This document shows positions 3,874 through 42,773 of a DNA stretch of 53,837 nt, one piece after another; positions within the stretch are counted from its first letter, which is position 1, and each line of letters starts with the position of its first letter. Origin of the DNA: Candidatus Woesearchaeota archaeon (lineage in GTDB: Archaea > Nanobdellota > Nanobdellia > SCGC-AAA011-G17 > JACPNG01); assembly GCA_016185605.1 (NCBI GenBank), contig JACPNG010000009.1:1-53837 (forward strand). Direction: 5' to 3'. Both the position numbers and the translations under genes were made by a program. The notes beneath the pieces are model-generated. The model made no database searches. It worked only from the letters and a program-made list of their open reading frames with translations, and was not told where the DNA came from.

Positions 3874-5133
3874 TTAACACCAGCTGAAATTTAACTCGGG
3901 TGCTTTCTCGCACATCTCCAAAGCCATTGATTGTATAGCCATAACATTTGCAGTTGTCAATGCTTGGAAATTTACTCCCGTTAGTTCTGAAGTTGTTGTA
4001 TTTGTTGTCTCATTGTAAACATCGGCATAATCTGCAAGAATAGGATTAATTTTTTTTAAATCTTCTGCTATGAATCCAACTTGTAAATTCTGCTCCCATT
4101 CTAGATTATTCCAGTAATAGGATATTGGTTGCAACAGCATATATTTATTCCATAAATTAGTTGTCATGGTTAAATTGCTTATATTATTCTTATATTCCAA
4201 TAATGAGGTGCAGTCTCCTATCACAGACGCTCCTGAGCCATCCCAACACATTCCATCACTGCCGACTTGGGAAAATGAACTGATGCCGACGTTGCCGGGG
4301 TCTCTGGTTATGAAAAATGTTGGTGCACTGTTATCAGTTTCTGACCCACCATAAGTAGCAAAGGTATAATTACTACCAGGTCCAGAACTGGCATATACTG
4401 CTAATAACCCCTTATTATTTGCTCCCCCTTCAACTGAAAGTGTGCTATTAATGCCACTTATTTGAGATGTTCCAATACCAACACTCTTTCCAATGCCCAT
4501 ACTATTATCAGAATTTACTATAAAGATAGTATTAGTTGCATCTGATATATTTAGATAAGGAATTGAAATTGCAGATGAGTTTTCTATATGCAACATAGCA
4601 GTTGGTATTGCTCCTATCCCGACACTTACTGGACTTCCGCCCAAAGTCATTATCCTTTTCAATGAGTTGCTTCCATCAGCGACATAAAAATGCATCTGCC
4701 TATTTGGGTCTCCATCAATTAACTCATAGACAATTTCTCCAATTGGAGTTCCGCCAGTTATATTAAATCCCAATGAGATTGCATCTCCAGCAGAAGCAGC
4801 ATTATTTTCTAATGTCAACACTGGTCCTTCTGTAGAAGAGCCTGCATCTATATGTAATGGAGTTGTTGGAGAAGAAGTTCCTATTCCTATTCTATTGCTT
4901 GTGGAATTAACGAATAATGTGTTTGTATTAACTAATAAATCATTTGTTATATTTAATTCTCCATTCTTAACTATAACATCTCCCGCATTTACTGCTATAA
5001 TTAGGAAAATTAACATGGCTATCGCTAGGCTGAATTTTAAGAATGAACTAAGGTAATTGTCTAATTTTGATACTTTATTAAAAAACCAATTTTCTTTTAA
5101 GGCTTTTTCATATTCTTTGCATATTTCTTTCAT
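3874..5133 (-). CDS. Membrane-anchored tail-fibre-like surface protein with C-terminal peptidase S74 / intramolecular chaperone domain
   Basis: N-terminal TM segment; GIGTSSPTTPLHIDAG-type fibre repeats; C-terminal SLLEYKNNISNL...GFIAEDLKKINP resembling S74 (SDxRxKxNI...GfiAqEv). Confidence 0.8.
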   Translation of the reverse strand: MKEICKEYEKALKENWFFNKVSKLDNYLSSFLKFSLAIAMLIFLIIAVNAGDVIVKNGELNITNDLLVNTNTLFVNSTSNRIGIGTSSPTTPLHIDAGSSTEGPVLTLENNAASAGDAISLGFNITGGTPIGEIVYELIDGDPNRQMHFYVADGSNSLKRIMTLGGSPVSVGIGAIPTAMLHIENSSAISIPYLNISDATNTIFIVNSDNSMGIGKSVGIGTSQISGINSTLSVEGGANNKGLLAVYASSGPGSNYTFATYGGSETDNSAPTFFITRDPGNVGISSFSQVGSDGMCWDGSGASVIGDCTSLLEYKNNISNLTMTTNLWNKYMLLQPISYYWNNLEWEQNLQVGFIAEDLKKINPILADYADVYNETTNTTTSELTGVNFQALTTANVMAIQSMALEMCEKAPELNFSWC

Positions 5134-39045: not shown

Positions 39046-39133
39046 AGCCCCAGGCAGGATTTGAACCTGCGACTTCTACCTGTTTGAACTTAGTCTACCA
39101 AGGTAGCGTTCCACCGAGCTGAACTACTAGGGC
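39046..39133 (-). tRNA. tRNA-Thr(GGU) with 14-nt intron at 37/38 (intron 39082..39095)
   Basis: GCCCTAG/CTGGGGC acceptor, GTTC/GAAC D-stem, CTACC/GGTAG anticodon stem, GCAGG-TTCAAAT-CCTGC, U73; BHB with TTGG/TCAA central helix, bulges TA^G and AC^A. Confidence 0.92.
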
Positions 39134-39795: not shown

Positions 39796-40018
39796 TGCGG
39801 GGGAAGGGATCAGTTCAGAAAAAGATAAATCCTTTCTCTTTTGAACCTTCTCGTAAGCTTAAGTATCACCTAAACTCATCTCGAACTCACTAAGAGACAG
39901 GATATCCTATTCTTAGGATATTAGTAATCAAAAGATTACTTGTCCCTCTTAAGTCCTGCGCATTTGACCAGGCTTTGCTCTAAGGATCATCAAATATTAA
40001 CTCAATGATTACCCCCGC
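39796..40018 (-). tRNA. tRNA-Leu(UAA) with four introns; exons (minus) 40018..40011, 39979..39948, 39903..39880, 39847..39841, 39810..39796
   Basis: Spliced 86 nt: GCGGGGG TA GCA AAGCCTGGTCAAA TGC G CAGGA CTTAAGA TCCTG TCTCTTAGTGAGTTC GAGGG TTCAAAT CCCTT CCCCCGC A; all stems pair, variable arm CTC/GAG, anticodon TAA. Confidence 0.92.
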
Positions 40019-40117
40019 ATTTGCCCGGCTTGTAGAAAAATAACTAAACAGTTTTAAAAACATTTCTTTTCTAAATAGAATAAAAAAACTTTTAAAATAG
40101 CCCATTATTAAAAGCAG

Positions 40118-42691: not shown

Positions 42692-42773
42692 AGCCCCCGC
42701 CAGGATTTGAACCTGGAACCTATTGCTTTTTCTAAGATACGAAGCAATTGCTCTACCATTAAGCTACAAGGGC
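42692..42773 (-). tRNA. tRNA-Thr(CGU) with ~10-nt intron (about 42728..42737)
   Basis: GCCCTTG/CGGGGGC acceptor, GCTT/GAGC, ATTGC/GCAAT with a 17-nt loop, CCAGG-TTCAAAT-CCTGG, U73. Confidence 0.85.

Follow-up and report, generated by a model that had tools for sequence, protein, structure and literature searches.

Three introns are given as the maximum for an archaeal tRNA gene (PMC4390854, PMC4033280, PMC3293823, and PMC3218864); an alga also has three introns in one tRNA gene (PMC4090602), and two or three per gene are reported in PMC8450103. Among the closest described systems, the tRNA-Glu(UUC) of Pyrobaculum calidifontis and the tRNA-Pro(UGG) of P. islandicum (Thermoproteales; PMC4390854) carry several BHB introns, one at the canonical position and others in the D-arm or T-arm, as does the tRNA-Leu(UAA) gene described here. 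These genes have at most three introns, however, and belong to Crenarchaeota with (alpha-beta)2 enzymes, whereas here four introns, and five in a relative, occur in a DPANN order with one endonuclease gene of probable alpha type. The tRNA-Leu(UAA) of Caldiarchaeum subterraneum is the same isoacceptor and likewise has multiple introns at canonical and noncanonical positions, but this organism belongs to another phylum, and for tRNA genes in general the same paper puts the highest known intron number at three (PMC3293823).

According to reviews, alpha4 splicing enzymes are strict, and multi-intron tRNAs occur together with (alpha-beta)2 or epsilon2 enzymes (PMC4033280 and PMC4090602). The ARMAN epsilon2 system likewise belongs to archaea with small cells, whose tRNA introns lie at various positions (PMC4033280). 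In the split tRNAs of Nanoarchaeum equitans, a leader pairs with another part of the precursor and builds a BHB-like splice site, a likeness to the arrangement proposed below; in N. equitans, the pairing is in trans, between the leader and trailer of two separate transcripts (PMC4090602), whereas here the leader would pair with the D-arm in cis, within the same transcript.

Three Asgard genomes contain 228 tRNA introns, with 40 and 38 tRNAs in two of them and over half of the genes multi-intronic; the main text of that paper gives no maximum per gene, and Asgard genes with four or more introns are possible (PMC11291895). These lineages, the Atabeyarchaeia and Freyarchaeia, are distant from the present one and are where an earlier gene with at least four introns would most likely be found. 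A full-text literature search for archaeal tRNA genes with four introns returned nothing relevant (subscription papers and GtRNAdb lay outside its scope). Judged by its sequence, the gene described here is a multi-intron BHB tRNA gene beyond the numbers reported in the cited literature.

Structure of the tRNA-Leu(UAA) gene and its orthologues

In the window, i.e., the whole 53,837-nt stretch of DNA that was analyzed, the minus-strand interval from 40018 to 39796 contains each exon string of the gene exactly once and in order (Table 1). The exons measure 8, 32, 24, 7, and 15 nt from 5' to 3', and the spliced product is an 86-nt type II tRNA with anticodon UAA in which all 20 pairs of the acceptor, D, anticodon, and T stems are standard. 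The long variable arm, paired stems, TAA anticodon, and A73 of an archaeal tRNA-Leu(UAA) are all present. An earlier note on this DNA had proposed such an 86-nt type II tRNA-Leu with every stem paired, and its exon strings and intron lengths (31, 44, 32, and 30 nt) are exact to the base. A split or permuted tRNA gene is ruled out, as all exons lie in order on one strand within 223 nt. The BRE/TATA-like element upstream is likely the promoter element of the gene.

Table 1. Positions of the tRNA-Leu(UAA) gene parts and of other features named in the text (window coordinates unless another contig or genome is given)
Feature	Position	Strand	Remarks
Whole tRNA-Leu(UAA) gene	39796..40018	minus	223 nt, five exons and four introns
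Predicted promoter element, BRE/TATA-like	40051..40066	minus	GAAATGTTTTTAAAAC; from sequence; similar GAAATATTTTTAAAAC in G009
5' leader segment	40023..40029	minus	GCCGGGC; complementary to D-arm; proposed outer helix of intron 1 splice site
Exon 1	40011..40018	minus	GCGGGGGT; tRNA positions 1-8
Intron 1, at 8/9	39980..40010	minus	31 nt; core GGGG/CCTT; bulges GT^A, AG^A
Exon 2	39948..39979	minus	D-arm and 5' half of anticodon arm, anticodon UAA; positions 9-37
D-arm segment	39967..39973	minus	GCCTGGT; partner of leader segment
Intron 2, at 37/38 (canonical)	39904..39947	minus	44 nt; core CTTA/TAGG; bulges AG^A, AT^A
Exon 3	39880..39903	minus	3' half of anticodon arm, variable arm, T-stem bases 1-3
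Intron 3, at 51/52 (T-stem)	39848..39879	minus	32 nt; core TTCG/CGAG; bulges AG^A, AA^G
Exon 4	39841..39847	minus	GGTTCAA; positions 52-58
Intron 4, at 58/59 (T-loop)	39811..39840	minus	30 nt; core GTTC/GAAC; bulges AA^A, TG^A
Exon 5	39796..39810	minus	ATCCCTTCCCCCGCA; positions 59-73
Intron-containing tRNA, by eye Thr GGU	39046-39133	minus	
Intron-containing tRNA, by eye Thr CGU	42692-42773	minus	
tRNA-Leu gene L017	G000:C17:10397-10480	minus	anticodon loop CTAAGGA, anticodon AAG
Four-intron gene L034 (G039)			introns at 8/9, 30/31, 37/38, 51/52
Four-intron gene L043 (G021)			introns at 8/9, 21/22, 30/31, 37/38
Five-intron gene L061 (SI047_bin70)	JABHYY010000005.1, ~4718-4969	minus	252 nt; introns at 8/9, 21/22, 30/31, 37/38, 51/52

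ARAGORN called no tRNA anywhere in the window, and Rfam gave no match at this locus at E <= 1 on an 801-nt region. Such silence, which the earlier note had anticipated from standard callers, is expected for a four-intron gene and is thus not read as absence of the gene.

Other tRNA genes of the same genome were missed or scored low by the general model, apparently through several introns: L154 (C7), L155 (C12), L156 (C4), L158 (C18), and L162 (C8). By hand, L156, a tRNA-Asn(GUU), looks to have three introns, and L162, a Leu(UAG), has a T-loop intron. ARAGORN also missed both of the intron-containing Thr genes in the window. The tRNA-Leu gene L017 would have A34, which is unusual in archaea.

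At all four junctions, the 4-bp central helix is fully paired and accompanied by two 3-nt bulges, as the earlier note described; the junctions differ in the flanking helices. At intron 1, both helices of the strict hBHBh' form are present, with an inner helix of at least 8 bp and an outer helix continued by the 5' leader. Intron 2 uses the anticodon stem as its outer helix and has no inner helix directly beside the core. Introns 3 and 4 each have an 8-bp inner helix; intron 3 has no clear outer helix, its exon side opening with a G-G mismatch, and the outer helix of intron 4 is just 2 bp. The mismatch, the 2-bp helix, and the lack of an adjacent inner helix at intron 2 had been left out of the earlier note. 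With no outer helix at 51/52, a short one at 58/59, and no adjacent inner helix at 37/38, several of these motifs resemble the hBH or HBh' kinds (PMC4090602). Folding of the whole precursor is uninformative on the BHBs of introns 1 and 2, since the tRNA fold competes. An alternative small hairpin (of the TCCTA/TAGGA kind) is also possible at the 3' end of intron 2; it uses central-helix bases and recurs in L032, L034, and L103.

Relatives, the named ones being Candidatus Woesearchaeota MAGs, were retrieved by a DNA pattern across the intron-1/exon-2 junction; the neighboring LmbE-like protein, used as a query against genome contigs, recovered none. The locus was compared by BLAST over 60 relatives, and the retrieved loci were aligned with splicing allowed. 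The syntenic locus of G009, from another genus of the same family, is identical at 86 of 86 nt and has an intron at 37/38 alone, which confirms junctions 8/9, 51/52, and 58/59 exactly and indicates that the three introns at these sites were each inserted or lost cleanly at a single junction. By eye, its neighbors are like those in the window, with the start of a divergent LmbE-like gene upstream and a second tRNA and the start of an adenylate-kinase-like gene downstream. Junction 37/38 is confirmed by the intronless orthologue of G097 (80/86 match), and single introns occur at 58/59 in G012 and at 8/9 in G037. These sister genomes, whose comparison the earlier note had proposed, support its reading of this DPANN locus as a tRNA-Leu(UAA) gene interrupted by four BHB introns.

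In the comparison set, 49 of 64 inferred introns have a perfect 4-bp central helix, compared with 28 of 1,404 (2%) slid controls, in which the 3' end of the intron was shifted by 1 to 12 nt. At 8/9, the intron strand tracks changes in the exon strand (GAGG/CCTC, GGAG/CTCT, and GGGG/CCTT).

Proposed pairing between the 5' leader and the D-arm

The intron at 8/9 is preceded by just eight exon bases, so any long outer helix at this site must use the 5' leader. The leader, exon 1, intron 1, and the D-arm fold as one hairpin at -24.3 kcal/mol, compared with -12.3 kcal/mol without the leader. A leader complement to the D-arm is found in all 13 genes with an 8/9 intron versus 1 of 26 without (Fisher P = 1.7e-9, a value that overstates the evidence because the genes share ancestry and are not independent). 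The rule for this complement (>=5 pairs, of which >=4 Watson-Crick, with the CTG core covered and an end within 8 nt of base 1) was formulated post hoc, after the sequences had been looked at; shuffled leaders satisfy it in 8% of cases for genes with the 8/9 intron and in 5% for genes without. As every gene with an 8/9 intron has the complement, cutting of intron 1 probably precedes removal of the leader.

We consider it doubtful that the complement arose as a by-product, from shared ancestry or promoter-proximal sequence, and has no role in splicing. The genes that carry it are related within families, which is why the Fisher value is not independent evidence, and, as computed, the central helix of intron 1 becomes no more probable with the leader than without it; a G-run there permits a one-base slip. 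The carriers span several families, however, and their leader sequences differ (GACTAGGT, TGACCAGGT, GATCAGAC, and GGTTAGGC) yet keep the pairing; where the D-arm reads GTCTGG, the leader is altered to match (GATCAGAC in L054 and GACCAGA in L061). The single exception among the 26 genes without the intron, L080 (G022), keeps the complement, which favors a by-product, and is possibly a case of recent loss of the 8/9 intron with the leader element retained; the other 25 lack both.

The splicing endonuclease of the order

The genome that carries the window has one splicing-endonuclease gene (PF01974), a 191-aa ORF. A PF01974 match above the cut-off is present in 95 of the order's 102 genomes, with one gene in nearly all and two in G042, and each of the five named multi-intron genomes has one. 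By sequence, the endonuclease of the window's genome is nearest to chain 3iey_A of N. equitans and to 1a79 of M. jannaschii; its Y/H/K motif regions align to the solved enzymes, and it is nearly colinear with 1a79, with no large insertion. Thus, whereas the ARMAN epsilon2 enzyme is a three-unit protein, the one here is a single short unit like 3iey_A and 1a79. No sign of an (alpha-beta)2 or epsilon2 enzyme of the Thermoproteales/ARMAN type was found in the order, nor, in the protein of the window's genome, of a specific loop insertion. The endonuclease is probably an alpha-type homotetramer, and, as read from these genes, the order does not fit the rule that ties multi-intron tRNAs to heteromeric or three-unit enzymes.

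The enzyme might instead act with a strongly diverged partner that PF01974 does not recognize and that gives it broad specificity. The known enzymes for multi-intron tRNAs are all heteromeric or three-unit (PMC4033280 and PMC4090602), and the catalytic subunit of N. equitans, the closest match of solved structure, itself acts with a partner. Searched up to E <= 10, the order's genomes gave scattered subthreshold matches only and no clear second, beta-like gene. This endonuclease does, as a query, detect the partner subunit of N. equitans, 3iey_B (NEQ261), at 8e-12; were a comparable beta subunit encoded in the order, it should therefore have surfaced, and we regard a hidden partner as unlikely.

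Intron numbers across the order and status of the gene

Across the aligned genes of the order, tRNA-Leu(UAA) has zero to five introns at six recurrent sites (8/9, 21/22, 30/31, 37/38, 51/52, and 58/59). Two further genes have four introns and one has five (Table 1), and many relatives have two or three. The five-intron gene has a 4/4 core helix at every intron, and its genome, SI047_bin70 (apparently G066), belongs to the same order and is 93% complete. The match to G066 is drawn from identical coordinates of the endonuclease gene. L080 has introns at 21/22, 30/31, and 51/52, without those at 37/38 and 8/9. Across these genes, the pattern looks like one of gain or loss in individual lineages at six permissive sites, and the same sites are used again in other families. 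The earlier note had given a maximum of three introns, which agrees with the literature, and had called four in a DPANN genome exceptional; the number does exceed the reported three, but multi-intron genes are a trait of the order, and Asgard cases are possible.

Several candidates were set aside. G254, G288, and G346, class-level pattern matches outside the order, gave no spliceable tRNA in the alignment, and L042 and the probable GAG isoacceptors L071, L072, and L074 have poor cores at the aligned junction and were excluded as support. The aligner placed a 90-nt T-loop intron in L056, the first junction of which scores badly; by hand, a single T-loop intron fits at 59/60 (TTCG/CGAA), so no fourth intron is claimed for this gene. 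Roles of the introns as guide RNAs or mobile elements were set aside by reasoning, the introns having insufficient length or sign of either, and nothing points to any separate function for them.

We are highly confident, from the comparisons above, that this is a working and apparently sole tRNA-Leu(UAA) gene, with one 223-nt precursor plus leader from which an alpha-type endonuclease would cut four BHB introns and whose exons would be ligated. The sequences themselves show the exons and introns, the core motifs, and the leader complementarity, together with their conservation; from these, we infer how transcription, cutting, joining, and the order of removal might proceed. After transcription as a single precursor, intron 1 would be removed before RNase P trims the leader, with the leader-D-arm pairing holding the splice-site hairpin; this order is probable because acceptor-stem bases are required for the central helix of intron 1. 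Once that intron is gone, the acceptor stem and D-arm would fold. Cleavage at the 4-bp helix and 3-nt bulges of every intron would fall to a single alpha-type endonuclease, and joining of the five exons to an RNA ligase, which in most archaea is RtcB. Against this explanation, the junctions at 51/52, where the outer helix is missing, and 58/59, where it is short, might not suit a strict alpha4 enzyme.

It is very hard to credit that the gene is a decaying pseudogene whose work is done by another Leu(UAA) gene, missed or unassembled. Four interruptions would normally suggest decay, and with 92% completeness the assembly may lack sequence that holds another Leu(UAA) gene or a second endonuclease subunit. 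However, every stem pairs, and the exons are identical to those of the one-intron orthologue in another genus, which implies strong purifying selection on them. On the question, raised in the earlier note, of another tRNA-Leu(UAA), BLAST of the locus against this assembly found no second copy among the matches listed (the other match listed was 18 nt, to intron sequence), and no other Leu(UAA) was recognized among the RF00005 hits inspected. It is likewise most improbable that fewer than four introns are real and that the insertions at 51/52 and 58/59, which lie on a MAG contig and lack a good outer helix, are assembly or binning artifacts or part of an unusual mature tRNA: the same sites with the same cores recur in independent assemblies (51/52 in L073, L080, L034, and L061; 58/59 in L059 and L049), and, if unspliced, neither the T-stem nor the T-loop could form.

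With the locus taken as a working four-intron gene, a broader proposal is that the order evolved up to five BHB introns per tRNA gene with a single alpha-type endonuclease, by way of 4-bp cores at six permissive sites and of leader recruitment at 8/9, which would force splicing of intron 1 before 5'-end trimming, and would so break the proposed rule that a relaxed heteromeric enzyme is needed for multi-intron tRNAs; we hold this proposal to be evenly poised. Four introns here and five in a relative, with what appears to be one plain alpha-type gene, exceed the reported three and would contradict the explanation by a broadened enzyme. The tRNA sets of DPANN archaea may be undercounted, because ARAGORN and Rfam miss such genes, and the orthologues, with combinations from zero to five introns, offer a ready series for intron gain and loss.
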